Assembly: GCA_947501845.1 (NCBI GenBank)
Contig: CANMXP010000011.1
Coordinates: 62,001 to 126,000 of the forward strand
From: an uncultured Flavobacteriaceae bacterium
Lineage (GTDB): Bacteria > Bacteroidota > Bacteroidia > Flavobacteriales > Flavobacteriaceae
Reading direction: 5' to 3'
Length of the DNA stretch: 64,000 nt
Shown: in pieces, positions 5,286 through 64,000 of the stretch
Layout: each line of letters begins with the position of its first letter
How positions within the stretch are numbered: the stretch's first letter is position 1
Position numbers and translations under genes: made by a program
The notes under the pieces: generated by a model
The model's input: only the letters and a program-made list of their open reading frames with translations
What the model was told of the DNA's origin: nothing
The model's database searches: none

Positions 5286-6605
5286 TTGAATCTATTCAAT
5301 CTTTCTTTAAAAATTAAAGGGTTTCCTATACGAGAAGCAAAACTGGCTTTAAAAGAAATTCAAAAGAAAAATGATGCGGAATTTAATATCTATCTTGAGA
5401 CTAAAAAGCAGGATATTGTTGCTTATCATTTAAAGCATAATTCGTTTTATAAATCCTTTGGAAAAAACGCAAACCCACAAGACTGGAATACCGTTCCAGT
5501 TATGACGAAAAAAGATTTACAAAACCCACTAGAAACACTCTTATCTGATGGTTTTTCACTAAAAAACATCTATGTCGACAAAACATCTGGAGCATCGGGA
5601 CAGCCATTCGTTTTTTCTAAAGATAAATTTACTCATGCTTTAACATGGAGTGTTATCATGGATAGGTTTTCTTGGTTTAATCTTAATTTTAATACTACAA
5701 AACAGGCTCGGTTTTATGGAATTCCTCTGGATAAAAAAGGGTATTATACTGAAAAACTAAAAGATTTTATTAGTAATAGGTATCGATTTAATGTGTTTGA
5801 TTTAAGTGATCATGCTCTCGAAAATTGGTTAGCCGATTTTAAAAAGAAGCCTTTTGCATACCTAAATGGCTATACGAGTCCTATTGTTCAATTTGCGAAA
5901 TATCTTCAACATAGAAATATTATACTTAAAACGGTTTGCCCTACTTTAAAAGCTTGTGTTGTGACTTCCGAAATGCTTTTTGAAAATGACAAGCAGCTTA
6001 TGGAAAAATGGTTAGGAGTACCTGTGATTAATGAATATGGTGCTTCAGAATTAGATCTGATTGCTTTTGAAAATATAAAAGGTGAATGGGTTGCTAATAG
6101 TGAAACACTATTTATAGAAGTTTTAGACGAAAACAATCATGTGTTGCCTTATGGCCAAGAAGGACGTTTAGTGATTACTTCTTTATATAATAGAGCGCAA
6201 CCATTCATAAGATATGATATTGGAGATATAGGCATTCTTTCAAAAAAAAGCACGCCCCATAAACCTATCTTGGAAAAATTAACGGGTAGAACAAACGACA
6301 TGGCCATATTGCCTAGTGGTAAAAAAGCGGCAGGATTAACATTTTATTATATTACAAAAAGTATTATCGAAAATGATAGCAGTGTTAAAGAGTTTATTAT
6401 TGAACAGTTAAAACTTGATACGTTTAAAATTCACTATGTTAGTGAAAAAAATCTTTCTTCGGCCAAAATACAAATGGTGAAAAATGAAATGGAAAACTAT
6501 CTTGAGAAAGGGCTTACCATTCTATTTGAAAGAGAAACTAAATTGAAACGTTCAAAAAGTGGTAAATTGAAACAGTTTTCATCATTAATAAACCCAAACA
6601 AATGA
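5286..6605 (+). CDS. CapK/PaaK-type adenylate-forming ligase of polysaccharide locus
   Basis: A 439-residue member of the phenylacetate-CoA ligase-like (CapK) branch of the adenylate-forming superfamily. Visible motifs are the ATP loop KTSGASGQPF at about 99-108, NEYGASE at 249-255, RYDIGD at 309-314 and LTGRTND at 332-338. CapK-type proteins occur in capsule loci, where they are thought to activate an acid for transfer to the glycan; the substrate is unknown. The frame is closed by TAG at 5274 and holds no early ATG, so the start is probably TTG at 5286. It overlaps wecB by 4 bp and heads a three-gene operon. Confidence 0.8.
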   Translation: MNLFNLSLKIKGFPIREAKLALKEIQKKNDAEFNIYLETKKQDIVAYHLKHNSFYKSFGKNANPQDWNTVPVMTKKDLQNPLETLLSDGFSLKNIYVDKTSGASGQPFVFSKDKFTHALTWSVIMDRFSWFNLNFNTTKQARFYGIPLDKKGYYTEKLKDFISNRYRFNVFDLSDHALENWLADFKKKPFAYLNGYTSPIVQFAKYLQHRNIILKTVCPTLKACVVTSEMLFENDKQLMEKWLGVPVINEYGASELDLIAFENIKGEWVANSETLFIEVLDENNHVLPYGQEGRLVITSLYNRAQPFIRYDIGDIGILSKKSTPHKPILEKLTGRTNDMAILPSGKKAAGLTFYYITKSIIENDSSVKEFIIEQLKLDTFKIHYVSEKNLSSAKIQMVKNEMENYLEKGLTILFERETKLKRSKSGKLKQFSSLINPNK

Positions 6606-7696
6606 ATATAACTATAGTTGCTGGTGCCAGACCTAACTTTATGAAAATCGCACCTATTATTGAAGCCATTCAGAATAAAAAAAAGGAAGGTATTAATATT
6701 AATTACAGACTTGTACACACTGGACAACACTATGATAAAAACTTAAGTGATACTTTTTTTGAAGAATTAAACATTCCTTTCCCAGACACTAACCTCAACG
6801 TTAAAAGTGGTACCCAAGCAGAACAAACTGCTGCAATTATGATTGGTTTTGAAAAGGAACTGGAACAAAACCCATGTGATTTGGTGATGGTAGTTGGTGA
6901 TGTTACCTCTACAATGGCTTGTACCATTGTAGCTAAAAAGGCCCGTATAAAAGTAGCCCACGTTGAAGCAGGCATTCGTTCTGGTGACATGAAAATGCCT
7001 GAAGAAATTAATAGAATTGTAACCGATAGTTTAACCGATTATTTTTTCACAACTTCAGTATATGCCAATGAAAATTTGATAAAACTCGGTACTCTAAAAT
7101 CGAATATCTTTTTTGTTGGCAATGTTATGATTGATACACTTTTAAAAAATGAAGGGCGGTTAAAAAAGCCTACGCTATGGAAGGATTTGGGTTTATCAGA
7201 TAAAGAGTATCTGGTTATGACACTTCATAGACCTAGTAATGTAGATGAAGAAGATCTTTTAAAAAAATTGGTCGCTCAAATTGTAACGTTAGGAGAAGAT
7301 TACCCCATAATTTTCCCTGTACATCCACGAACTAAAAAACTTTTAAGTGGTTTAAATTTAAATTTTAAAAACCTCCATTATGTTAATCCGTTAGGCTACT
7401 TGGAATTTAATTATCTGGTAAAACACGCTTTTGCCGTATTAACTGATTCTGGTGGTATCACTGAAGAAACTACTGTTATGAATGTACCCTGTATTACACT
7501 TAGAGATTCTACGGAACGCCCTGAAACTTGTGATATAGGAACCAATATCTTAGTTGGAAATGATTCTGAAAAGATTGAAAATGCTTTCAAAACTTTACTT
7601 TCCCAATCTTGGAAACAAGGAACTATTCCAGAATTATGGGATGGGCATGCTGCTAAAAGAATTGTTAATCATTTGCAAGATCTTTATAAGTTATAA
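6602..7696 (+). CDS. wecB: UDP-N-acetylglucosamine 2-epimerase (non-hydrolysing)
   Basis: Interconverts UDP-GlcNAc and UDP-ManNAc for surface polysaccharide synthesis. The 364-residue protein shows GARPNFMKIAPI at 8-19, HTGQHYD at 39-45, HVEAGIRSGD near 120 and the UDP-binding stretch DSGGITEE in the C-terminal half, all typical of the non-hydrolysing class. The ATG overlaps the upstream CapK-like stop (ATGA), indicating translational coupling, and the stop overlaps the next ATG by one base. It is distinct from the hydrolysing LegG-like epimerase at 26946-28049. Confidence 0.92.
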   Translation: MNITIVAGARPNFMKIAPIIEAIQNKKKEGININYRLVHTGQHYDKNLSDTFFEELNIPFPDTNLNVKSGTQAEQTAAIMIGFEKELEQNPCDLVMVVGDVTSTMACTIVAKKARIKVAHVEAGIRSGDMKMPEEINRIVTDSLTDYFFTTSVYANENLIKLGTLKSNIFFVGNVMIDTLLKNEGRLKKPTLWKDLGLSDKEYLVMTLHRPSNVDEEDLLKKLVAQIVTLGEDYPIIFPVHPRTKKLLSGLNLNFKNLHYVNPLGYLEFNYLVKHAFAVLTDSGGITEETTVMNVPCITLRDSTERPETCDIGTNILVGNDSEKIENAFKTLLSQSWKQGTIPELWDGHAAKRIVNHLQDLYKL

Positions 7697-8859
7697 TGAA
7701 GAATATCCTCATCATAACCAATTATTTCCCCCCAGAAACAGGTGCTGCCTCAAACCGTATCTTTCATTTAGCTGAAGGGCTCCAAAAGCATCATTTTAAG
7801 GTGTCCGTCTTAACGCCTTTACCTAACTATCCTACAGGTAAGGTTTTTGAAGCATATAAAGGACGGTTTAAACATTCTTCCATAAAAAACAATATTGCCA
7901 TTCATCGTTTATGGATCTATGCAAGTAACTCAAAAAACAAGCTATTACGCTTAATAGCCATGCTGTCTTATAGCTTTAGTTTAACTTGGTTTTTTTTATG
8001 GAATAAAATTCCTAAAACTGTTATCATACAATCACCTCCATTACTGGTTGCTTTTACTTCAATGTTCTTTCTACGTTCGAAAAAACGAAAACTCATTTTA
8101 AATGTAAGTGATTTATGGCCCATTGCGGGATTGGAATTAGGCGCCTTTAAAAAGAATTTCAGCTATAAAATGCTTGAAAAAATTGAACGTTTTAATTATA
8201 AACATGCTAATCTCGTTTTAGGACAAAGCAATGAAATTTTAAGTCATGTGATATCTTTATTTCCAGAAAAGGATACTTTTTTATATCGTAATTATCCAGA
8301 TTTTGCAGCTCCAAAGATTTCTGAAAGAAACACTTCTAAAGAAAAGCTAAAAATAGTGTATGCTGGGCTGCTAGGTATTGCACAAGGCATTTACAAACTG
8401 TGCAAAGAACTAGACTATACTCATATTCAATTTCATATTTATGGTGCTGGTGCAGAACAAAACAAAATTCAAACTTTTATTTCTGAAAATCCAGAATTAG
8501 ATATTATATATCATGGAGAAGTATCAAGAGATAAACTGCATAAGATACTTGTGGAATATGATTTAACTATTATTCCATTACTAAACAGGATTTATGGGTC
8601 TGTACCCTCAAAAATATTTGAATATGCCCGCTTGGGGCTGCCTATCATTTATTTTGGTGGAGGGGAAGGTGAGCAAATTATACAAAAATACGGTTTAGGT
8701 TGGATAGCTAAATCTGGAGATTATAATAACTTAAATCATGTTATTTCTAAAATAAATCTATCAGAAATCCATATGAAACAAAGAGAAACTATTAAAGCGA
8801 TTGCTTTTAAGAATTTCGATTTCAATACTCAATTAAACCTTTTAAGAGAAAAAATTTAA
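7696..8859 (+). CDS. Glycosyltransferase family 4 (WbuB/WcaI-like)
   Basis: A 387-residue GT-B fold retaining glycosyltransferase. The N-terminus ITNYFPPETGAASNRIFHLAEGL and the following LTPLPNYPTGK match the WbuB/WcaI branch of GT4. The C-terminal donor domain has YAGLLGIAQGI and SVPSKIFEYARLGLPII. It probably adds one sugar to the lipid-linked repeat unit at the inner membrane. Its start overlaps the wecB stop by one base. It converges with the phosphoglycosyltransferase gene, overlapping by 4 bp. Donor and acceptor cannot be inferred. Confidence 0.85.
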   Translation: MKNILIITNYFPPETGAASNRIFHLAEGLQKHHFKVSVLTPLPNYPTGKVFEAYKGRFKHSSIKNNIAIHRLWIYASNSKNKLLRLIAMLSYSFSLTWFFLWNKIPKTVIIQSPPLLVAFTSMFFLRSKKRKLILNVSDLWPIAGLELGAFKKNFSYKMLEKIERFNYKHANLVLGQSNEILSHVISLFPEKDTFLYRNYPDFAAPKISERNTSKEKLKIVYAGLLGIAQGIYKLCKELDYTHIQFHIYGAGAEQNKIQTFISENPELDIIYHGEVSRDKLHKILVEYDLTIIPLLNRIYGSVPSKIFEYARLGLPIIYFGGGEGEQIIQKYGLGWIAKSGDYNNLNHVISKINLSEIHMKQRETIKAIAFKNFDFNTQLNLLREKI

Positions 8860-10208
8860 TATGCTTTTTCTTCCCCTTTTAAAGCATTTAAAAACGTTTG
8901 AAAAATAATTTTCAAATCTAATAACAGAGACCAGTTTTCGATATAAAAGATATCATATTTTACACGATTAATAATATCTTTTTCTTCTTCTATTTCTCCT
9001 CTAAATCCACTTATTTGGGCTAACCCTGTAATGCCAGGTTTTACAAAATGACGCACCATAAATTTATCTACCCGCTGTGCATACATATTGGTATGACTTA
9101 CCATATGTGGCCTAGGCCCAACCACAGACATGTTTCCAAAGAGTACATTAAAAAATTGAGGGAGTTCATCTATACTGGTTTTACGTATAAACTTTCCTAT
9201 TTTAGTTATCCTCTGGTCTCCTTTTGTCGCCTGATGTAAATGAGCGTTTTCATTTGGCCTCATAGACCGGAACTTATAACAATCGAATTCTTCATAATTA
9301 AACCCATTTCTCGATTGCTTAAAAAATATAGGCCCTTTAGATTCTAACCTTATTAATATGGCCAATATTGGGGTTAACCACGACAATACAAATACAATAA
9401 TGAATGAAGAAAATAGAATATCGAACAAACGTTTAAGGAACTTGTTTAACGACTCTTGCAATGGTATTTCTCTTATGGATAAAATGGGGATGTAATCGTA
9501 ATACTCATACTTAAGTTTCTTTGAAAAAATATCCTTGTTATCAGGAATAAATTTTAGCTCTCTTAAATTGTTATCTGCAAAATCGATCAATTTGTTTATT
9601 TGCTTATTAGTCAGTGCAGATACAGAAAAATATATTTCATCAATATCATTGTCTATGATATACCTAAAACATTTTTCTAAAGAAAAATCGCCTTCATTAA
9701 CACCAAAATTACCTTTAAACTTATATCCAAAGTCAAGTCTTTTGTTAAACGTCTTTATTAACTGCCTTGTTTTTTCATTCTCGCCAATAACTATAATATT
9801 TCTAATATTGCCACTTAATACTGATCTATATTTTTTTAATAGTAAAAGCGTTAGCACTTTAAATACCGATACCAATAAAAAAATTAGCATTAAGTAATTC
9901 GCCAAGCCCAGCCGACTAATATTTGGTTGCTTAAAAAATCCTATAAAGGCATAAATAATAATTACAAAAAACACCATTTGCCTTAATAAAAGTGTTATGA
10001 TTTGAATTATTCGTGTATGTCTTTGAATTTCATAAAAGTGATTTATAAAAGATATAATAATCCACATTAAAGATAGATACGCAGTAAACAAATAAACGTT
10101 TATTAAGTTTATTTCAAACAAAATGACACATCCATTTATAATACCTAAATCAATTAAATATGAAATGGGCTTTAAAAACCCTGAATATCTTCCTTTTTTG
10201 TAACTCAA
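8856..10208 (-). CDS. Initiating polyprenyl glycosylphosphotransferase (WcaJ/WbaP-like)
   Basis: Transfers sugar-1-phosphate from a nucleotide sugar to undecaprenyl phosphate, starting repeat-unit assembly. The 450-residue protein has four N-terminal membrane segments (about 15-125), a CoA-binding-like middle region, a further membrane helix near 265-285, and the bacterial sugar transferase domain with FKQSRNGFNYEEF, CYKFRSMR, RKTSIDELPQFFNVL and MSVVGPRPH. Length and order fit the WcaJ-like polyisoprenyl-phosphate hexose-1-phosphate family. It is the last gene of the long minus-strand block, 2 bp after the decarboxylase gene. Confidence 0.92.
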   Translation of the reverse strand: MSYKKGRYSGFLKPISYLIDLGIINGCVILFEINLINVYLFTAYLSLMWIIISFINHFYEIQRHTRIIQIITLLLRQMVFFVIIIYAFIGFFKQPNISRLGLANYLMLIFLLVSVFKVLTLLLLKKYRSVLSGNIRNIIVIGENEKTRQLIKTFNKRLDFGYKFKGNFGVNEGDFSLEKCFRYIIDNDIDEIYFSVSALTNKQINKLIDFADNNLRELKFIPDNKDIFSKKLKYEYYDYIPILSIREIPLQESLNKFLKRLFDILFSSFIIVFVLSWLTPILAILIRLESKGPIFFKQSRNGFNYEEFDCYKFRSMRPNENAHLHQATKGDQRITKIGKFIRKTSIDELPQFFNVLFGNMSVVGPRPHMVSHTNMYAQRVDKFMVRHFVKPGITGLAQISGFRGEIEEEKDIINRVKYDIFYIENWSLLLDLKIIFQTFLNALKGEEKAY

Positions 10209-54266: not shown

Positions 54267-54518
54267 ATGATAGGGAGTAAAAAAGAATTCACGCTTAAGT
54301 GTTTTGAACAGCTTTTTGAAAGCTTGTATCCGCAACTTTGTGTGTTTGCATACAGGTATCTCGAAGATTTGGATACCTCTAAAAGCTTAGTACAGGCCGT
54401 TTTTTTAAGGGTTTGGGAAGATCAAATTGCTTTTCAAAATGAAAAACATAGAACACACTATTTTTATAAAGCTGTAAAAAATGAATGCCTCAATTATTTA
54501 AAAACGAAACAGCTTTAA
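54267..54518 (+). pseudogene. Truncated ECF sigma factor (region 2 only)
   Basis: The 83-codon frame matches ECF sigma-70 region 2: FEQLFESLYPQLCVFAYRYL near 13-32, then LVQAVFLRVWED (QExFxxxWE-type core) near 41-52 and a C-terminal FYKAVKNECLNYLKTK. A complete ECF sigma of about 180-190 residues would continue through region 4, but the frame stops at 54518 and the next 150 bp show no region 4 in any frame. It is thus probably a non-functional remnant. No anti-sigma or TonB-receptor gene follows. Confidence 0.65.
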
Positions 54519-54673: not shown

Positions 54674-54685
54674 TTTAGTATACCT

Positions 54686-56026
54686 TTAAAGCTTCCTACC
54701 TTTTTTTGTATGCTTTTCGCTTCTTATATAGCTCTCATCTAAAGCAACTTCTTTAAGCTCAACAGATCCCGCTTCTTGCATTTTATCAACAATAATAGAT
54801 AAATCTTCGTTTTCCAAAATCGCTTTAATTTCATGGAATTCGTCGCACCAAACCTCTTCTTGATTTTTATCAAGACTCGGCGTTCTTTCATTTTTTCTGT
54901 TTTCATCGGCAATAACCCTTGCTTGAATACGACTTAAGTTTTTGGGACTCATAAATTCCACACCATAAAGAGCGTTTTTTGCTTTTTTTACCACCAAACG
55001 TCCATTCTCCACCCAAGCGGTTTCCATACCATCATTAACCTCATAACCAGCATCTTTCAATGCTTTTTTAATGGCTTTTCGTCTGGTTTCAGTAATAATT
55101 CTTTGAGATTCTTCGTCGTATAGCCTAGTTGCCTTTTCTAATGCATTTTGTAAATCGGTTAAGTTATCCAATTTAAGTAACGCTTTCCATTTACTTATAA
55201 ACTGAATTTTTAGTTCTAATGTTTCCAATTGAGCAATTATACGCTCTAAACTTTCCTTAATTTCTCTAAGCTCTAACTGTTCTTTATAAAACGTTGCCGC
55301 CTCTATAGTTAACGAATCCAATAAGAGAGAATAATTAGTATCGCTACTGTTAAGTTCATTACAGCGCTGTATAAATTCCTGAATTTTACCTTGAGAAACA
55401 TCTGTAACATACATTTCTTTTAAAGTGTTTTCCAGCTTCTTAAGTCTTGTTATAACTTTAGGACGATTTGATTTCCATTTTTCAACAGAAAGCAAACTAT
55501 CGCCCGAAGATAAACGCGTCTGAATTTCTACCTGTTCGCCTGTTAGTTCTTGTTCATTAAAAGCAGCATTTTTTAAGATGGTATATAAAGCATCAATATG
55601 TTTACTGTATATTTCTATCTGTTCTTCAGAAATTATTGATGGCGCCTCAAAGTCATTAAATTTTATATGCTTCTTTTTTAGCAAAAACCGCAACTCGTTA
55701 TGTGTGCTCTTTAGGTTTTTATATGTTTCCCATTTAGAAGCTCTTTCTTTTACAACTTTTTTAACTAAGTTTTTCTTTTCTGTTTCCAGAAATTTAATTT
55801 GATTAGGTATTTCTCTTTCTATTCTTGAGTAATCATCTTCTGAAATATTTTGATAATGATTTAGTGTTTTTTGTAATGCAGTTTTCAAGTCGCCATTAAG
55901 CGCATTATGTTTTAAAGCATACGATTCTACATTAGCAATTTTACTTTTTAATCTGCTAATCCATTTTTGCTTAATTATTCTTCGTTCTTCTGGAGTTACA
56001 ATTCTTACAACTTTAGGGCCACTCAT
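54686..56026 (-). CDS. Helical protein starting MSGPKVVRIVT, last gene of the kinase-helicase operon
   Basis: A 446-residue, mostly helical and highly charged protein. The first ten residues, MSGPKVVRIV, form a distinct N-terminal tag that I associate with proteins found in similar gene sets, though I cannot name a family. From about 20 to 330 the sequence is coiled-coil prone. A compact C-terminal domain from about 335 has GYEVNDGMETAWVENGRLVV and LYGVEFMSPKNLSRIQARVI. Stop-start with the preceding helicase gene is immediate (TAG then ATG), so it is translated with it. It may be a scaffold or sensor; function unknown. Confidence 0.6.
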   Translation of the reverse strand: MSGPKVVRIVTPEERRIIKQKWISRLKSKIANVESYALKHNALNGDLKTALQKTLNHYQNISEDDYSRIEREIPNQIKFLETEKKNLVKKVVKERASKWETYKNLKSTHNELRFLLKKKHIKFNDFEAPSIISEEQIEIYSKHIDALYTILKNAAFNEQELTGEQVEIQTRLSSGDSLLSVEKWKSNRPKVITRLKKLENTLKEMYVTDVSQGKIQEFIQRCNELNSSDTNYSLLLDSLTIEAATFYKEQLELREIKESLERIIAQLETLELKIQFISKWKALLKLDNLTDLQNALEKATRLYDEESQRIITETRRKAIKKALKDAGYEVNDGMETAWVENGRLVVKKAKNALYGVEFMSPKNLSRIQARVIADENRKNERTPSLDKNQEEVWCDEFHEIKAILENEDLSIIVDKMQEAGSVELKEVALDESYIRSEKHTKKGRKL

Positions 56027-59000
56027 CTATTTTGTATTTAGTACATTTTCTATTGTTCTTTTTAATCTGTTTTTCTCCCCGTCTTCATCATGAAGCCATC
56101 TGTAAGAAGTCGTTCTATGTATCACAGGAATCGATTTTTTAAGTATCAACGGACGCCATAATTCTCTGTATCTAGCATTTGCCAGTAACTCATTATTTGG
56201 CACATCACACTCAATACCAATAACAAACCTGCCAGTTTCTTTATCCTCAATTGCTAAATCCAGGTAAAACACATTGTAGTCGTTATTTTCTACCACATTG
56301 TAACCAATACTTTCAATATAATTTTTAACCGTATTTTTAAAACCATCATTTTTTATAATTGTGTCTTGATACGTGCTGTTTGCTGATAGTTTTTTTATTT
56401 GCTTATCGGCTATTTCAATGTGTGTATTAGAGTGATTTTCGGCATAATTCAAATAACTCTGTATATAATCTCTTGGTTTGGATGGCGATCTTCCTGTTGA
56501 TAACATATCTGAAATATCTTTAATAGGCATTGAAGTAGCAATAACAACTTTATAACGAGCCCTGGTAATCGCTACATTTAAGCGTCTTTCTCCTCCACGA
56601 TGACCTAAGACACCAAAATTACGACGAAAAACACCATGATTGTTGTACCCAAAAGTGGTACTAAATAGAATCATATCCCGTTCATCTCCCTGTACATTTT
56701 CTACATTTTTCACAAAAAAGCCCATATCTTCACCCTCTTGTTGCCTGCTGCGTTCTCTAGTCAAAATTGCCATGAAACCTTCATCACCAAGAGCTCTTTC
56801 TTCTATTTTTTCTTCAATAAGTTCGGATTGCTTTTTATTGAAAGTAACAATACCTGTACTTAGTCTTTCGTTTTCGGGCAACTGCCAATGGTTGTACAAG
56901 TATTCAATTAAGCTATCTGCCTCACCTTTATTAGCCTGTTCATTATAAACTGAATTTACTCGAATTACTTCAAGGGGTTTTGTCTTTTCTATTTCATTTA
57001 GAGGGTGATAAGCTGGAATATGTAATTGCCCGCTATAAAAGGCATGATTAGAAAAATTAATTAAAGCCTTAAATTGAGAGCGATAGTGAATTTGAAGCGT
57101 TGTTGTTGGCAATACCGTTTTAGCCAAGGTTAATAAATCTGGGCAATCTTTTACCTCTTGTTTATTCCAGGCATCTTGGAAACTTACTAATTCTTCTTCA
57201 GAATTGTCTTCACTTAATTCAGTATTCGTTACATCATCATCGGTTTCTATTTTATGAGCAAAGAAATCTGCAGGAGGCATTTGTTTTTCATCGCCACTTA
57301 TAATTACCCTTTTGGCTCTATATAAAGAAGGAATGGCATGATCTATTAGCATTTGAGAAGCTTCATCAAAAATAACCACGTCAAACATACCTGCTTGTAA
57401 TGGCAATGCTTGCGAAACCACCTCGGGACTCATTAACCATATTGGCCTTAAGTTTAATAATCCTATTTCTTCTCCTAAATGGATAAATTCGCGAAGCTTT
57501 TTGTAATTCTTTCCTCGTAATCTGGTAATTGCATTCCAATCTGATTTGGGTCCAATTTCATTAAAGTTATAATTAAGATTTAGTAATTTCTTATTTAACC
57601 CTTTAACTTCAGTCAAAGATTTATCTAATGACTTAATATTTTGCGCTATGTTGTTCTCTGCCATAAGTAAGGCAGGCGATTCTTTTTCTATTCGTTGTTT
57701 CCATCCAAGCAAACCTTCACGCCTAATCGTTTTTGCTATAAGCTCATTCCAACTACCAATGGGAAACTCATTTATTTTATGATCATATTTTCTAACTAAT
57801 GCCAATAGTTTTAGTGTATCATCAACGAGTTTGTCATCTCCTAATCTTATTCTAAATTTCTGATAAGGTATATAGTAAACCATATCTGCGATCATCATTT
57901 TTAGAAGCTCTAAACTAGTATTGTTATTCCTAATGTTCTCTTCAAATTTCGCAAAACTAGCAGGGGTTAGCCATGGCTTAAGTACATTGATTTTTTTATT
58001 AGATTTTTGTCTAATATTAAATCTATCACTAGCATCTTTTAAATCCTGAATAAACTGCAGATACTCTTTTTTTGCTCCTGTCTTTAGTAAATTTCTGGCT
58101 TCATTCTTTAAAGGGCAACTTTTCAAAGCCTGCGCCAATTCAATGGATGAAGAAAGGTCATTAAGTTGACTACCAATTTTTACTGCCAGAAGTTTCGTTT
58201 CAAAAATCGGCTTAAAACTAATGTTCAACTTCTTTAACTGAAGTTTAAATTGATTTCGATAATCTCTAAAGGTAGACTCATAACCCAATACTATTTTTAA
58301 TTGATTTGCATTCTCATGGTTTAATTTTAATTGATGAATTCCTAAAACTTTTTTCAGTCTATAATCGTAAATCCAAGAAAAAGGATTAAGCATCCTGAAT
58401 TTTGACTTTCTTAAATAACTATCACAGACTTTTTTGGTTTTATACAATAAATCATCTGAGGCTTGAATTACCCATTCAGAAAATATTTCATTTCTACTAC
58501 CTTCGAGTAACGTTAATGTGCTTTTTGACAATTGAAGCAGGTTCTCTGAAATATCCTCTGCTATTGATTTTTTATTGAATTCATCATAGATTAAATCAGA
58601 CCAATTACTGGCATTGCTTGCTTCTACATCAGAGATTTTAAGTAGTGTCTTCTCATTTTCAATCAACCATTTCTCATAAAATTGAGCTTTTTCATTATCA
58701 AAAACCTTTGAGGTTTGCTTAATACAGATAACTCTTTTTTCTTCAATTTCATAAAAGTCTTTTAAGTCATTACTAATAGTATTTTGTGTAACTTCATCTG
58801 GTTGTAATATTTTAAGATGAGCAAGTGCATTTTCTTCATATTTTGAAGGTAACCAATCATTAATTAACGCTCTAGTTTGTTCTTCTATAACATTTAGTTC
58901 GTTTGCGGTGGTATTCTCTAAAACGCCTCTAACTTCTGGAACATCGATATATGTTTCAGATTGAATTTGAATGAGTTCGGACAATATATTTCGATAACTT

Positions 59001-62000
59001 AGGCCTGCGGTATGGTCTAATACATGTATTTTCTCAGATAATACATTTAGTTTTCGTTCAATTCTATCTATTTGCCCAGTTAAATTGTTTCGCCTATATT
59101 GAAGTTCTTCAAGTGCATTTTGTTGCTCTGTTTTTTTAAGATGATGCGATACATGCTCTCGCACATTTTTAATAATACTTTGACGATCCTTGGTAATATC
59201 TGTAATTGTTAAAGTTCTTTTTTCTAAACCAGCAGCTTCCAGACGCTTTAAAATCACCTGAATAGCTGCTCTTTTTTGAGATACTACAAGCACTTTTTCA
59301 TTTCTACCCAGACAGTCTGAAATAATATTCACTATAGTCTGGCTTTTACCCGTGCCAGGAGGTCCTTCTACTACAATGCCCGGGCTTAATCTGCTATGTA
59401 TTACTGCTTTCTCTTGCGATGGGTCTACAGGTACCACAGTATATCTATCGTTTTCAGAAGTGGTAGGGTTATACTTAGGAATTTCAGGAATATTTATCTT
59501 TAAAACAGGCTCCATTGCTGTACCCGTATGTGGTAGCTTTTGCAATAAGCGTAAATCTTCGCTAATTGCCTGCCCTGTAAAATTAGCGTTAAAAATTACT
59601 GCAGAACAATGAATTTGTACTCCCAAATCCTTCATCTTATAAATACTTTCGGGATGAGGGCTAAGCTTTGAGGTATTCAATTCAAAAAAAGAACCAAATG
59701 CATTTATTACATCCGAGATACTTAATGTTTGTCTTCCAAGGATTTCGCGATAGATCTGTTTGATTTTTTTATATTCGTCAACCTCTAAAGTACTTCCAAG
59801 CGCAGGATTTAACCGTATTTCTTCACGTATTTTATCAAATTCTAGTTCTAATGCTGGCGCCGACCTATTCTTTAATTCTAACGCTACAGGCCATAAAAGT
59901 ATAGGCAATATTCGTGGTCTGTGTGTTGTTTTGGCTTGATTAATTAAAAACGGAAATCCCATATACAATGAATCTAAGCCTGTGTCTCGCTTATGGTTCG
60001 CCGTTTTTAATAACATGCGCCTGGTTCTGTACTGCAAAATTGGGTTTTCACTAAAAACCCTTGGGTCTACAGCCTCTGCACCAGCATACCGATTAATGAT
60101 TTTAAGTAGTAATTTTTCTGAAGGTTTTAGAGAAGTACCCAGCTCATTTAAGTCGAGACGTGGAGAATGTTTTGAAATAATTAGTCTAACCAAAGGCCCT
60201 CTTGAAGAGGCATAAACTATTTTCTTTTCAAAAAACTGCAATAAGCTAGACGCATATTCGTGTTTTGGCGGGGTAATCCACTTATCTTTAGGTAGTGACA
60301 AACATAAAACCGATTTTAACAACGAAAGCCTTTTTTCAATTCTAAAACGATCTGCCCAACGATTTAAAGATTCGTTACTCGTATTGGAAAAACCTTCTAA
60401 ATGTGAATTTAGCAGTTTGTAAATATCAATTATTGGCCTTATAAGCAGGTCTCTATAAAAATTTACGTCTACATCAATTTTGATTTTTTTTGCTAAATCG
60501 GTCGCTTTTTTTACCAATTCGTCTAATGGTATAAACTGTCTGCTATCTGCACTTAGTATGAGTATTAAGTCTTCTTCATTTAGTCTAATATCGCCCATTA
60601 AGCTGGATAAGTCTTCATTATTAGCATCAGGATAAATTTGACGGAGTAAATCTATTTCAGATTTTAGCCTTACTCTCGAAGTGCTAAGCACATTTATCTC
60701 AAATTTATTCTTATCTATATCAATGTCTAACTTTTTCGCTTTTTCTACTATATTTTGTTTTCGGGCTTTTAGGTTAACCAGCCATTTTTCTCGATTAATT
60801 TGACCTAAATAATTAGGAATTCCCCCATCTATTAATTTTGAAGCAGCGATAGGATTTCCCAATAACCAAGCGGGAATGATTATTTGCCCTCTCCAGGTTA
60901 AAGGCAGTGCTTCATTTAAATGCATTAATGCTAAGGAAAAACGCCACTCTAAATCAATATCCTCTTTGGTACGTAAATTTTTAATGGAAGCACTTATCTT
61001 ATCTTCTCCTAGAATTTCATTTACCCAGTTTGAAAGTGCTCCCGATGTAAATAAGGAAAGCCCTTCTTCCCAGTTTTTTTCCTCGGCTGCAGCAAGAGCA
61101 AAATAATTGATATTGGTATACGTTTCTCCTCCTAAAACAATCTTTTTTTCCTTTCCTTGGTTTGGGGCTACCCAAGTTTCTATGGGAGGAGCTACATATT
61201 CTTTATTTAACCATTTATTTACCTGTTCCCAATTCCAACGTTTTAAGGGGTCTCTACATAATAGGCCTTTTAGCAATAGTAAGATCCTTTCGTCTAGATT
61301 AGTTGGTAATTCAACTCCTCTAGTTACTAAATGAATCATAAAAGCCTTATCATTTATGTTCTTAAAAAATTCCCCATTAGTAGCTTGCTCCAAAATAATC
61401 ATACCTAGACTCCACCAGTCTGAAGCCGGACTAACACCACCTATAATCGCTTCTGGAGCTGTATATTTTGTTAATTCTAAAGGTGTATCGGTATCTAAAT
61501 CATAATCGGATAAACGAGCAGAGCTCAAATCAATAATTACCAGATCAAAATTTTGATTATTTCTAATAAGTATATTCCAAGGGCATAAGTCGCGATGACG
61601 CAATCCTGCTTCTGAAAAATCGTGAAGCGCTCTTCCAATTTCGTCAACTAACTTTTCTAGTTGATCTTCATTAAGATAATCAAGCGTATCTAATGACCCT
61701 CCTTTTATTTGTTCGGTAACCTCAAAAAAGCGATCATTCCAATATCCTGTTTTAATTAGTTCTGCTATATGGTCAACATCTGCCTTTCTTAAAACATTGT
61801 AAATTGCTTTATCGGGTTCGCAATTTTCATGATATAGCGTTAAAAAATAAACCGTTTCTTTATCGTCCTTAACCAAAAAGCATTCTTTGGTTACTTGTGC
61901 CGTTTGTATAGATTCTATAACGGTATATTCATCTATAAGCTGTATCTTTTCTTCTGCGGCTATCTCTTCTTTTATATCAGCTCCACATTCCATACACATA

Positions 62001-62209
62001 AAGTCAGATTCTCCCACTTCATGGCCCATTTCACAGTAGCGTTTTTTTTGCTCTAGAGTTGTATGTACGTCTACATTGCCACCTACCAGTGTTTGCTTAA
62101 CGTTCATGAGAAGCCAACTACATGCAGTATCTTCAACAACATTCTTACAATACATTTCGCTTACAGGTCTTTCGCTATTACAAGCTGGGCAAAGTCTTAT
62201 ATACTTCAT
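56027..62209 (-). CDS. Zinc ribbon-kinase-DUF4011-SF1 helicase-endonuclease fusion
   Basis: A 2060-residue protein. Residues 1-80 hold CxxC-type zinc ribbons (CPAC at 7-10, CEMGH, CMEC at 72-75). A kinase-like domain spans about 92-335 with HRD 205-207, N212, DLS 227-229 in place of DFG, and APE 251-253; the VAIK-type lysine appears absent. A long unassigned part follows. A DUF4011-like segment lies near 765-815. The SF1 helicase starts with GPPGTGKS at 949-956 and continues with FDEASQM near 1613, GDEKQMPP near 1637, VQGDERD near 1837 and NVAITRAR near 1877. The C-terminal 100 residues (YLDLAIED, IGIECD) resemble the MTES-type endonuclease domain. It overlaps the radical-SAM gene by one base. 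Confidence 0.85.
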   Translation of the reverse strand: MKYIRLCPACNSERPVSEMYCKNVVEDTACSWLLMNVKQTLVGGNVDVHTTLEQKKRYCEMGHEVGESDFMCMECGADIKEEIAAEEKIQLIDEYTVIESIQTAQVTKECFLVKDDKETVYFLTLYHENCEPDKAIYNVLRKADVDHIAELIKTGYWNDRFFEVTEQIKGGSLDTLDYLNEDQLEKLVDEIGRALHDFSEAGLRHRDLCPWNILIRNNQNFDLVIIDLSSARLSDYDLDTDTPLELTKYTAPEAIIGGVSPASDWWSLGMIILEQATNGEFFKNINDKAFMIHLVTRGVELPTNLDERILLLLKGLLCRDPLKRWNWEQVNKWLNKEYVAPPIETWVAPNQGKEKKIVLGGETYTNINYFALAAAEEKNWEEGLSLFTSGALSNWVNEILGEDKISASIKNLRTKEDIDLEWRFSLALMHLNEALPLTWRGQIIIPAWLLGNPIAASKLIDGGIPNYLGQINREKWLVNLKARKQNIVEKAKKLDIDIDKNKFEINVLSTSRVRLKSEIDLLRQIYPDANNEDLSSLMGDIRLNEEDLILILSADSRQFIPLDELVKKATDLAKKIKIDVDVNFYRDLLIRPIIDIYKLLNSHLEGFSNTSNESLNRWADRFRIEKRLSLLKSVLCLSLPKDKWITPPKHEYASSLLQFFEKKIVYASSRGPLVRLIISKHSPRLDLNELGTSLKPSEKLLLKIINRYAGAEAVDPRVFSENPILQYRTRRMLLKTANHKRDTGLDSLYMGFPFLINQAKTTHRPRILPILLWPVALELKNRSAPALELEFDKIREEIRLNPALGSTLEVDEYKKIKQIYREILGRQTLSISDVINAFGSFFELNTSKLSPHPESIYKMKDLGVQIHCSAVIFNANFTGQAISEDLRLLQKLPHTGTAMEPVLKINIPEIPKYNPTTSENDRYTVVPVDPSQEKAVIHSRLSPGIVVEGPPGTGKSQTIVNIISDCLGRNEKVLVVSQKRAAIQVILKRLEAAGLEKRTLTITDITKDRQSIIKNVREHVSHHLKKTEQQNALEELQYRRNNLTGQIDRIERKLNVLSEKIHVLDHTAGLSYRNILSELIQIQSETYIDVPEVRGVLENTTANELNVIEEQTRALINDWLPSKYEENALAHLKILQPDEVTQNTISNDLKDFYEIEEKRVICIKQTSKVFDNEKAQFYEKWLIENEKTLLKISDVEASNASNWSDLIYDEFNKKSIAEDISENLLQLSKSTLTLLEGSRNEIFSEWVIQASDDLLYKTKKVCDSYLRKSKFRMLNPFSWIYDYRLKKVLGIHQLKLNHENANQLKIVLGYESTFRDYRNQFKLQLKKLNISFKPIFETKLLAVKIGSQLNDLSSSIELAQALKSCPLKNEARNLLKTGAKKEYLQFIQDLKDASDRFNIRQKSNKKINVLKPWLTPASFAKFEENIRNNNTSLELLKMMIADMVYYIPYQKFRIRLGDDKLVDDTLKLLALVRKYDHKINEFPIGSWNELIAKTIRREGLLGWKQRIEKESPALLMAENNIAQNIKSLDKSLTEVKGLNKKLLNLNYNFNEIGPKSDWNAITRLRGKNYKKLREFIHLGEEIGLLNLRPIWLMSPEVVSQALPLQAGMFDVVIFDEASQMLIDHAIPSLYRAKRVIISGDEKQMPPADFFAHKIETDDDVTNTELSEDNSEEELVSFQDAWNKQEVKDCPDLLTLAKTVLPTTTLQIHYRSQFKALINFSNHAFYSGQLHIPAYHPLNEIEKTKPLEVIRVNSVYNEQANKGEADSLIEYLYNHWQLPENERLSTGIVTFNKKQSELIEEKIEERALGDEGFMAILTRERSRQQEGEDMGFFVKNVENVQGDERDMILFSTTFGYNNHGVFRRNFGVLGHRGGERRLNVAITRARYKVVIATSMPIKDISDMLSTGRSPSKPRDYIQSYLNYAENHSNTHIEIADKQIKKLSANSTYQDTIIKNDGFKNTVKNYIESIGYNVVENNDYNVFYLDLAIEDKETGRFVIGIECDVPNNELLANARYRELWRPLILKKSIPVIHRTTSYRWLHDEDGEKNRLKRTIENVLNTK

Positions 62210-62835
62210 TATTCTTTCTTTATTACAGCTTGAGTACTTTTAATGTAAACTCCGTTTTGTTTAAACGCTTTGGATATTTTTTCCATTCCATATATTGGAA
62301 TTCCTGCCATCCATACCTCATTAGAATCAAACTGTACATCTAGCATTTTTTCTGGTGCTTTTTCAGCATAAGCCGAAAAGGATTCTTTTCCTAAAGTAGA
62401 TAGGAAATGTATTTTTTGGTTATCACTACCCAATAACGCTTTGGTTTGAGTTTTTTTATAATCGTATGGTTCTGATATTAAAACATCTATTAGATTCAGA
62501 ATTTCTTTTTGCTTTTGAAGTTTTTGAAACGAATAACCGCTATAAACCAAGACCGATAAATTATATGATCTTAGAAAACCAAGCAATTCAAATAGTGCTG
62601 GTTGTTGATCAAAAGGTTCTCCTCCCGAAATGGTTATCCCTTCTGCTTTTGGCAACCACTTTTTTAGCATTTTCTTCACGTCCTCTAAATCCACCAAATT
62701 CGTATTTAACTGCCATGTATCTGCAGAAATACAACCTTCGCAATGAATGGAACAGCCTTGAAACCAAATGCCTATTCTTTTTCCTGGGCCAAGTGTTGCG
62801 ACTGGAAAATGTAAACGAGAAATAGCAATTTTCAT
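62209..62835 (-). CDS. Radical SAM activase-like protein (4Fe-4S)
   Basis: A 208-residue protein with the radical SAM cluster motif CSIHCEGC (C28, C32, C35; CxxxCxxC) and SAM-binding GGEPFDQQP near 76. Size and the FQGC start resemble the NrdG/PflA-type activating enzymes, which install a glycyl radical on a partner. No glycyl radical enzyme is encoded in the window, so the partner is probably another member of the operon or a small substrate. It has LVYSGYSF and ends in a basic tail. It starts 3 bp after the AAA+ stop and overlaps the helicase gene by one base. Confidence 0.85.
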   Translation of the reverse strand: MKIAISRLHFPVATLGPGKRIGIWFQGCSIHCEGCISADTWQLNTNLVDLEDVKKMLKKWLPKAEGITISGGEPFDQQPALFELLGFLRSYNLSVLVYSGYSFQKLQKQKEILNLIDVLISEPYDYKKTQTKALLGSDNQKIHFLSTLGKESFSAYAEKAPEKMLDVQFDSNEVWMAGIPIYGMEKISKAFKQNGVYIKSTQAVIKKE

Positions 62836-62838
62836 AGT

Positions 62839-64000
62839 CTATTTTCTAATCAAATTAATCGTAGTAGTTCTATGTTCTAATAAAATACTTGAAGCCTCTA
62901 CCGCATCACCTTTAACTGGATTTAATGAAAACAATGCTCTGGAAATAGGCGAGATGAAGTGGTATTCTATTTTATTTCTGATGCCTCTACCACCATTATT
63001 TAAATCGGCAATAGATAATTCCTTAAGCGTTTGCATCACTTTTTGCTGAAGATGAAGTGAAATACCTAGTTGTTTTTGAATGGCATTGATATGGTTTTCC
63101 ATCATCATATCAAAGATCATTTTACCAACATCTTTTCTTATGAAATCAAAAACAATAATATTATCTCCAATTCTATTCAGTAGTTCGGGACGGTTTAAAT
63201 CCAATTTAAAATACCGCTCAATTTCATGCTTCACTTTCTTTTCTACAGTTTCAAACGTATCTTCAAAAGTCACATTTGGAAAACGTTCTCCTGTTGGCGA
63301 TTTTTTATAAATTCCTAAGTTGGAAGTAAAAATAATTAGAGTTTCAGAAAAATAGACCTTGTCACCTCTTCCACTTGTAAGTACGCCATCATCTAAAATC
63401 TGTAGAAATTTATCTAATATTCTGGGATGTGCTTTTTCAATTTCGTCAAACAATACCACGCTAAAAGGTTTTTCCCTTACTGCATTGGTAAGTTCACCAC
63501 CAACATCATACCCTACATAGCCTGGAGGTGCTCCAATAAGTCTTTGGTCAGAATGTTCAGCACTAAACTCAGACATATCAAACCTAATATATGCGCTTTC
63601 ATCACCAAATAGAAGGCTAGTAAGTGTTTTGGCTAACTCTGTTTTTCCCACACCCGTTGGTCCTGCTAAGAAAACAACACCTCTGGGACGATTATTTCTT
63701 TTTGAAGAACCAACACCTGTTATGGCTCTTTTTACAATATCCATGATATGTAGAACCGAATGATTCTGCCCTTTTACCCGCTTTCTTATAAAAGTTTCTC
63801 CGTTCTTTATTTTTTCTCTATCAATTTTAACCCAGGGATCTTCGGTTACACCTACTTTATATCTTCTCACCGCATCGGCAATAAACGAAATAGGAATAGA
63901 CTCAGCTCTGGCCAATTCTATAATTGCTACCAAATCTAATAACAATAATCCTTCGGTTTCATCAACAAAATCTGTAACTATCTTGCTTACTTCAGCTTTA
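62839..64000 (-). CDS. Clp-type AAA+ ATPase, N-terminus beyond window edge
   Basis: The frame is open to the right edge (387 codons visible), so the start lies outside. Residues from the edge inward show the end of one domain (LARAESIPISFIADAVRRYKVG) and then a full ClpB/ClpA D2-like domain: Walker A GPTGVGKTELAK, pore loop GYVGYD, Walker B VVLFDEIEKAHP, sensor FTSNLG, arginine finger RPELLNRIG and sensor 2 GGRGIRN. The pore loop and Clp layout suggest threading of protein substrates. No ClpP-binding loop is seen. It heads the visible operon; a first AAA domain is likely upstream. Confidence 0.9.
   Translation of the reverse strand, partial: KAEVSKIVTDFVDETEGLLLLDLVAIIELARAESIPISFIADAVRRYKVGVTEDPWVKIDREKIKNGETFIRKRVKGQNHSVLHIMDIVKRAITGVGSSKRNNRPRGVVFLAGPTGVGKTELAKTLTSLLFGDESAYIRFDMSEFSAEHSDQRLIGAPPGYVGYDVGGELTNAVREKPFSVVLFDEIEKAHPRILDKFLQILDDGVLTSGRGDKVYFSETLIIFTSNLGIYKKSPTGERFPNVTFEDTFETVEKKVKHEIERYFKLDLNRPELLNRIGDNIIVFDFIRKDVGKMIFDMMMENHINAIQKQLGISLHLQQKVMQTLKELSIADLNNGGRGIRNKIEYHFISPISRALFSLNPVKGDAVEASSILLEHRTTTINLIRK

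Follow-up and report, generated by a model that had tools for sequence, protein, structure and literature searches.

A mobile four-gene operon joining a Clp-like ATPase and a radical-SAM enzyme to a helicase-nuclease: a candidate bacterial defence system

Near one end of the window (the whole 64,000-nucleotide stretch analysed here, C11:62001-126000 within the 5.37-Mb genome of an uncultured Flavobacteriaceae bacterium) lies an operon of four minus-strand genes that encode, in order, a Clp-like AAA+ ATPase, a radical-SAM enzyme, a large helicase-nuclease and a protein starting with the residues MSGPK (the MSGPK protein). The four-gene set is a real conserved unit, and we consider it likely (at a probability of about 0.6) to be a mobile system that defends the cell against phages or other foreign elements, in which the helicase-nuclease would be controlled by the Clp/radical-SAM pair. 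The conservation of the unit, its mobility, its defence-rich setting in the genomes examined and its conserved catalytic motifs all support a defence role. A preliminary description of this DNA had proposed a multi-component system, and the proposal gains support from the intact unit in 75 of 80 loci, from the conserved helicase and nuclease motifs and from the defence-type and mobile contexts described below. The features of the operon, in window positions, are these:

62839..64000, minus strand: Clp-like AAA+ ATPase, first gene, extending beyond the window edge (open reading frame (ORF), Pfam)
63640-63663, minus strand: Walker A motif of the Clp-like ATPase
62209..62835, minus strand: NrdG/PflA-like radical-SAM enzyme, 208 amino acids (aa) (Fer4_12, 98.5 bits)
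62731-62754, minus strand: CX3CX2C cluster motif of the radical-SAM enzyme
56027..62209, minus strand: 2060-aa zinc-ribbon/pseudokinase/helical/superfamily 1 (SF1) helicase/MTES-type nuclease protein (ORF, library scans, alignment)
61985..62197, minus strand: N-terminal Cys/His cluster, probable zinc ribbons (C7, C10, C21, C30; C59, H63, C72, C75)
61208..61927, minus strand: kinase-fold domain, pseudokinase in nearly all relatives (Pkinase 82 bits, Foldseek)
56531..59425, minus strand: SF1 helicase core AAA_11/AAA_12, motifs GPPGTGKS and DEAS (Pfam, alignment)
56051..56341, minus strand: PD-(D/E)XK nuclease of the MTES_1575 type (PF18741, 56 bits)
54686..56026, minus strand: 446-aa adaptor-like protein, start MSGPKVV (helical body and C-terminal alpha/beta domain)
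56012..56026, minus strand: MSGPK N-terminal motif (alignment)
54675..54676, no strand: right insert edge, where homology to the operon-free genome G125 picks up 11 nt past the stop of the last gene

All coordinates were checked, and they confirm the layout first described: a 3-bp junction between the Clp-like and radical-SAM genes (Clp stop 62839, radical-SAM start 62835), a 1-bp overlap where the radical-SAM stop and the helicase start share one base (TAATG, position 62209), and a 0-bp junction where the TAG of the helicase gene ends at 56027 and the ATG of the MSGPK gene stands at 56026. The complete Clp-like gene, as seen in the genome beyond the window (L003:6840-8660), encodes 606 aa, and its start would fall at window position 64659.

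Conservation, mobility and genomic setting

An alignment of the radical-SAM enzyme was used to scan one genome per species (84,980 species). The scan confirmed 205 loci, and the best 80 of them form the sample described here; these were picked by radical-SAM similarity, and the figures that follow are valid for them rather than for all radical-SAM relatives. All four genes are present in 75 of the 80, in the same order every time (75/75), and the Clp-like gene, the radical-SAM gene and the large gene, whole or in part, are present in 80/80. Four of the five loci without the MSGPK gene run into contig ends (L057, L078, L084, L085) and the fifth (L086) has a broken large gene; 76 loci are free of contig-end cuts, and 75 of them have the full set. 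Median gaps between the genes of the 75 loci are +2, +3 and -4 nt, with more than 60 nt ahead of the last gene in five, and damaged genes occur in three (the large gene ends early in L032 and L075; the last gene is fragmentary in L088). Chance neighbours can therefore be rejected, and the outcome that the preliminary description had named as telling against it, genes not conserved together in other genomes, was sought and not obtained. The loci come from seven phyla by their submitters' titles, several being metagenome bins (Bacteroidota, Pseudomonadota, Acidobacteriota, Chlamydiota, Myxococcota, Planctomycetota and Verrucomicrobiota), and the nearest among named genomes, within the best 80 of 205, are uncultured Flavobacteriaceae. 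Each of 20 whole genomes searched gave one radical-SAM match at E<=1e-30. The ratio of nonsynonymous to synonymous substitution rates (dN/dS) is 0.04-0.20 across the four genes in three relatives, showing purifying selection on all four.

The operon is also patchily distributed and evidently mobile. A tRNA-Met gene stands next to mce/rbfA in 12/12 genomes of the window's genus, with enough sequence beyond the tRNA in 11, and the operon is present in 3/12. In the window genome and in G019, which also have several following genes in common, it directly adjoins the tRNA; in G131 other cargo intervenes, and the operon lies about 14.5 kb further along. G125 and G128 have just a few small genes at this site in common with the window genome and with G019, and the remaining genomes carry cargo without a match to window genes, except for the operon in G131. 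G125 provides an operon-free site, in which homology ends at the tRNA end and restarts 11 nt after the last stop, about 10.4 kb being represented there by about 80 bp. Synonymous divergence (dS) between the operons of the window and of G131 (L013) is 0.08-0.21, far below that of the neighbouring genes rbfA (2.1) and ftsX (1.7), which indicates that the operon was recently transferred. An 83-aa ORF just beyond the right insert edge (window 54267-54518) looks by eye like a sigma-factor fragment and is matched in G125 by a counterpart of 80% identity; at the G131 site (L176:1391-15136), the row of ORFs ahead of the operon includes one of 2887 aa.

Further afield, the operon was found in 2/100 genomes of the family (window genome included) and in 1/25 genomes of the genus of Pseudomonas strain PA7 (G114), a sample that may or may not include P. 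aeruginosa proper. The four genes also occur on Rhizobium and Caballeronia plasmids, one of them typed conjugative, with identities of 54-57% for the Clp-like protein, 50-52% for the radical-SAM enzyme, 38% for the large protein and 25-26% for the MSGPK protein. A tree, built by a quick method and with some long branches, pairs Legionella with Chlamydiota and Hahella with Bacteroidota. Two further occurrences were considered and dropped: Clp-radical-SAM DNA from Proteus gave no match in 20,395 records searched for E. coli, and 0/148 matching phage records cover 80% of the Clp protein.

The genes around the operon were compared in 20 genomes, taking 6 kb on each side and, as control, 12 kb of the same contig at a distance of 100-200 kb. 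Of the 214 flank and 176 control ORFs we kept the seven longest per genome and removed those above 1000 aa (3 and 7). This gave sets of 136 and 126 ORFs, to which one control stretch contributed none. At E<=1e-15 the flank ORFs match 88 PADLOC families and the control ORFs 25. Among the 25 of the 88 flank families listed are HamA, KwaB, AriA, JetB, JetD, type II methyltransferase and restriction endonuclease, mad2 and PDC-S54; the control families are of the Pycsar cyclase/TM, E1-E2, 2TM-effector and GlgB kinds. Pfam finds Phage_integrase in three flank ORFs and rve in two, and neither is among the 25 of 129 control families listed. At the tRNA-Met site of the genus, where eight large ORFs from five genomes were compared with PADLOC at 1e-12, a type I restriction-modification set was found in G132, no more than 12 kb from the tRNA. 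These results, together with the layout in PA7 described next, place the operon in defence-type contexts, for which the preliminary description had advised to look.

In PA7, pheS (2.516 Mb) and a tRNA-Pro gene (2.520 Mb) are followed by about 19 kb of cargo and then by the operon (2.540-2.550 Mb). This is the layout of P. aeruginosa core defence hotspot 1, the best known of the defence hotspots in that species, with the operon at its right border opposite pheS and tRNA-Pro: in the section of the paper that describes the hotspot, a small hypothetical gene, a large DUF4011 gene and a radical-SAM gene face it from that border, and the marker genes merR and DUF4011 occur in every P. aeruginosa isolate (PMC10250203). 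The same section treats the border as a core marker, gives it no function and does not name a Clp-like gene; what is probably a piece of the operon has been reported there as a landmark and not as a system (PMC10250203). By position rather than by sequence, the PA14 gene (PA14_RS11765) and its neighbours would be this operon. The PA7 cargo between tRNA-Pro and operon (L202:2005-16692) includes an 1830-aa ORF within a row of large minus-strand ORFs.

The four proteins

The large protein matches four Pfam families, Pkinase (82 bits), AAA_11 (68), AAA_12 (63) and MTES_1575 (56.0, cut-off 38.2). In its helicase the Walker A and DEAS motifs are at least 90% conserved (84 rows). Its nuclease passes the gathering score of MTES_1575 and keeps the acidic residues D1984 (77/77), E2000 (76/77) and D2002 (76/77; 7/84 rows are gapped here), which we infer to be catalytic. 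The zinc ribbons have no Pfam match, and each of the eight Cys/His residues is at least 90% conserved in the 84-row alignment. The domains listed in the preliminary description thus stand in large part, Pfam supporting the AAA+ ATPase, radical-SAM enzyme, SF1 helicase and MTES nuclease, and conservation alone the zinc ribbons; DUF4011 does not stand as such, with no Pfam match at E<=0.1 in the window protein, and in its place the helicase-nuclease half matches the NCBIfam models Hhe and ProA, far under their cut-offs.

The kinase-like region likewise kept its fold and lost its proposed activity. An AlphaFold model of residues 1-915 (predicted local distance difference test score, pLDDT, 84.9) retrieved the kinase fold with Foldseek (E 2e-11), with kinases only among the 50 matches listed. 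Catalytic positions were scored by alignment to two Aristaeella kinases that have all four catalytic residues, in 83 rows (one of the 84 was too short). The ATP-binding beta-3 Lys is Thr in 78/83 relatives and Lys in 1/83, the HRD Asp is retained in 77/83, the catalytic Asn in 26/83 and the DFG Asp in 15/83; the window protein has Thr, Asp, Asn and Asp at these positions. As a family, then, these proteins lack the full set of Lys, HRD Asp, Asn and DFG Asp of an active eukaryotic-type Ser/Thr kinase, and judged by its residues nearly every member has a pseudokinase here. Phosphorylation, suggested at first as a control step, is accordingly rejected. The Verrucomicrobium copy L089 retains all four residues; its kinase may be active, and an active kinase may be ancestral.

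Family-library scans of the Clp-like protein used the 386-aa part within the window, and the PDB comparison the full 606 aa. The window part matches AAA_2 (169 bits), and the protein consists of an unusual N-domain and one ClpB-D2-type AAA domain: in the PDB its Clp matches are restricted to residues 251-588 and correspond to the second of two AAA modules (ClpB 525-836 of 854, for example). It lacks the two AAA modules of ClpB/ClpA, and the 386-aa part reaches 255.6 of 1232 bits with the NCBIfam ClpB model. In the 84 rows, 236 columns are conserved in at least 90%, as are what we take to be the Walker and sensor motifs. No ClpP-binding loop was seen by eye, and no dedicated test was made.

The radical-SAM enzyme matches Fer4_12 in Pfam (98.5 bits) and NrdG in NCBIfam (87.8 bits), and the C28, C32 and C35 of its CX3CX2C motif are conserved in at least 90% of 84 sequences, as expected of a radical-SAM protein. 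The NrdG score is under the equivalog cut-off for the class III ribonucleotide reductase activase (126.1), and the NCBIfam prokaryotic viperin model gives 12.6 bits against a cut-off of 180. In the MSGPK protein each of the five motif residues is kept in 77/79 rows and G327-Y328 in 79/79; its AlphaFold model (pLDDT 86) is mainly helical with a C-terminal alpha/beta domain, and NCBIfam, PADLOC and PHROGs reported no family for it at the limits used.

Related gene sets and known systems

A sister set of genes occurs on plasmids. Six plasmid records in which the Clp match is full-length (32-34% identity) were opened, and 5/6 carry consecutive genes for a helicase, a PIN-domain protein, a coiled-coil protein, the Clp-like protein and the radical-SAM enzyme (L094:4499-14452, L095:4710-14417, L096:4575-14486, L097:4018-14420 and L099:4719-14438; the hosts are Moellerella, Photobacterium, Polaromonas, Leisingera and Acinetobacter). 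In the sixth, from Geminocystis, the radical-SAM gene lies about 9 kb from the Clp gene and the annotation of the row lists neither such a helicase nor a PIN gene. The sister set shares with the operon a homologous Clp-like protein with the same N-domain, alignable between the two, and an alignable radical-SAM enzyme; it differs in having helicase and PIN protein as separate genes, in the lack of a kinase-like Pfam match among the Moellerella proteins scanned, and in an adaptor without detected homology to the MSGPK protein. The PIN domain was checked by Pfam in Moellerella alone, where the SF1 helicase is MkoA-like (340 bits), and the profile of the sister-set adaptor matches the MSG-starting Geminocystis protein (probability 87%, E 4e-6). 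This five-gene plasmid set is probably an undescribed defence-type relative. The Clp and radical-SAM genes are adjacent in the 80 loci, in the five plasmid sets and in Aristaeella, and not in Geminocystis.

The Aristaeella cluster, on a plasmid of A. lactis (L009:3790-21652), combines a ProA/PDC-S37-like helicase (1187 bits with ProA, 1308 with PDC-S37) with two separate kinases having all four catalytic residues, an MSGPK-starting protein, an FHA/zinc-ribbon protein, a radical-SAM enzyme, a Clp-like protein and a PP2C phosphatase. This cluster suggests that the operon may derive from a kinase-regulated ancestor, whose kinase would have been fused and later inactivated. Homology of the MSGPK protein to DUF1257/Ycf35, to the sister-set adaptors and to MSG-starting proteins of Aristaeella, Geminocystis and Calothrix was suggested by eye and not supported: hidden Markov models gave whole-sequence E>=0.013, and profile comparison a probability of 0.1% for the sister-set adaptors and of 1-4% for the Aristaeella, Geminocystis and Calothrix proteins.

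The Clp N-domain also occurs away from the operon, its model matching 48/296 Bacteroidota genomes at 1e-12. Ten such neighbourhoods were opened; nine have an AAA gene without radical-SAM, helicase or adaptor matches at E<=1e-4 and so point to a different system, and in the tenth the gene was not among the ORFs picked; in five of the nine (L190, L191, L195-L197, ~6000-9500) a 570-aa AAA protein stands beside genes named by eye as PspA-like and CorC/hemolysin-like. Plasmids of Paenibacillus and Paenarthrobacter (L010:11676-14543, L100:4564-8257) carry a relative of the radical-SAM enzyme with an AAA protein, presumably Ycf46-like, and a DUF2997 protein, joined in Paenibacillus by a DUF1257 protein.

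The preliminary description knew of no system of this composition, and we found none either: the four-gene set is represented by none of the models in Pfam, NCBIfam, PADLOC or PHROGs, and a search of open-licence PubMed Central papers gave no functional description of it. Parts of it resemble known systems. Residues 887-2058 of the large protein (SF1 helicase and nuclease) align with ProA (NF058533, 478.7 bits) and PDC-S37 (465 bits); the ProA cut-off of 1500 bits is missed, the Clp (386-aa part), radical-SAM and MSGPK proteins match no ProA-partner model, and no ProA paper was found in the same literature search. Hhe (NF042953), to our knowledge described as a single gene, is similar over the helicase-nuclease segment (279.8 bits, cut-off 2000). 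Mokosh combines an active Ser/Thr kinase with a helicase (type I) or consists of a helicase fused to a phospholipase D (PLD) domain (type II); the theme of kinase fold and SF1 helicase is common to both, and MkoA gives 170 bits on the helicase of the large protein, whereas here the kinase is degenerate throughout the family, the nuclease is of the MTES type with no PLD match in Pfam, and the Clp-like, radical-SAM and adaptor proteins are extra. The predicted vWA-MoxR 'FtsH ternary' conflict systems likewise have an AAA+ ATPase and a stand-alone radical-SAM component, whereas the operon has other effectors and no vWA, MoxR or FtsH genes (PMC7159879).

Proposed function and its alternatives

If the operon is a defence system, the large protein would be the effector, binding nucleic acid, with the SF1 helicase feeding the C-terminal PD-(D/E)XK nuclease, which would cut it. 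Its zinc ribbons and pseudokinase would form a sensing or docking platform rather than phosphorylate, and the MSGPK protein would be an elongated adaptor holding the large protein. The Clp-like ring would remodel the adaptor-effector complex as a switch or reset, and the radical-SAM enzyme, which accompanies the Clp-like protein more steadily than any other partner, would mature one of the proteins (our best guess is the adaptor), such that only the modified complex is competent. In favour of defence we also count the resemblance of the effector half to the ProA, PDC-S37 and Hhe anti-phage models and the retention of Clp and radical-SAM genes in the sister set.

Several results weigh against this proposal. 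The control ORFs match defence models too, some very strongly (Pycsar cyclase 1.7e-214, E1-E2, 2TM effector); many of these may be ordinary relatives, and the flank test shows a difference in number and kind rather than presence or absence, in 20 genomes and with matches that are not assignable to individual genomes. Six of the eight large ORFs at the tRNA site of the genus have no PADLOC match at 1e-12 (four from G123, G124 and G127, and two from G131, of 2887 and 678 aa). The sister set has the radical-SAM enzyme and no MSGPK start, and the motif is thus not tied to that enzyme. The MSGPK protein has neither a Pfam match above cut-off nor a significant PDB match (fold best E 0.5; sequence profile best E 0.52), and residues ~340-905 of the large protein have no Pfam match above cut-off and no PDB match. 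Finally, every P. aeruginosa isolate is reported to carry the DUF4011 gene of the hotspot border (PMC10250203), which is unusual for a defence gene and fits a housekeeping one.

The operon could instead encode a housekeeping complex for stress or nucleic-acid repair, for example one that clears damaged RNA or stalled nucleoprotein, and is not aimed at foreign elements. The purifying selection on all four genes speaks for such a role, as does the border gene reported in all P. aeruginosa isolates, and repair and quality control often involve Clp proteins and SF1 helicases. We nevertheless judge this explanation unlikely: a housekeeping complex would sit poorly with the patchy distribution (3/12 in the genus, 2/100 in the family, 1/25 in the genus of G114), the recent transfer and plasmid copies, the large gene broken in L032, L075 and L086, and flanks that exceed controls in defence-model matches. 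An abortive-infection system, in which the triggered helicase-nuclease attacks host nucleic acid and is normally restrained by the Clp-like protein and the adaptor, appears less probable again; the restraint of toxic effectors by AAA+ proteins has precedents and the four genes are co-conserved and tightly coupled, but the present data do not separate self from foreign targets. Least probable, in our estimate, is that the operon simply belongs to the known family of DUF4011/ProA/Hhe anti-phage helicases, as a four-gene version whose accessory genes are unimportant, since, for all the 479 bits with ProA and 465 with PDC-S37 on the helicase-nuclease half, the scores are far under the curated cut-offs (ProA 1500, Hhe 2000), 75/76 uncut loci retain all four genes, and the Clp-radical-SAM pair recurs with a dissimilar nuclease.

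Within the defence interpretation, a bolder and only tentative possibility is that the Clp-like ring acts together with the NrdG-like radical-SAM enzyme as a general control module, not described so far in immunity. It would combine with different helicase-nuclease effectors, of the MTES type here and of the PIN type on plasmids, and license them by radical modification and ATP-driven remodelling; the plasmid sister set does suggest a single control module serving several effectors. On this reading, core defence hotspot 1 of P. aeruginosa would have at its fixed border a species-wide immune system. A defence role of the operon would in itself add two enzyme types, a Clp-like unfoldase and a glycyl-radical-activase-like enzyme, to the control of helicase-nuclease immunity. 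Because the operon apparently stands at that border, where the border gene is reported in every isolate, its role should be accessible by deletion in laboratory strains.

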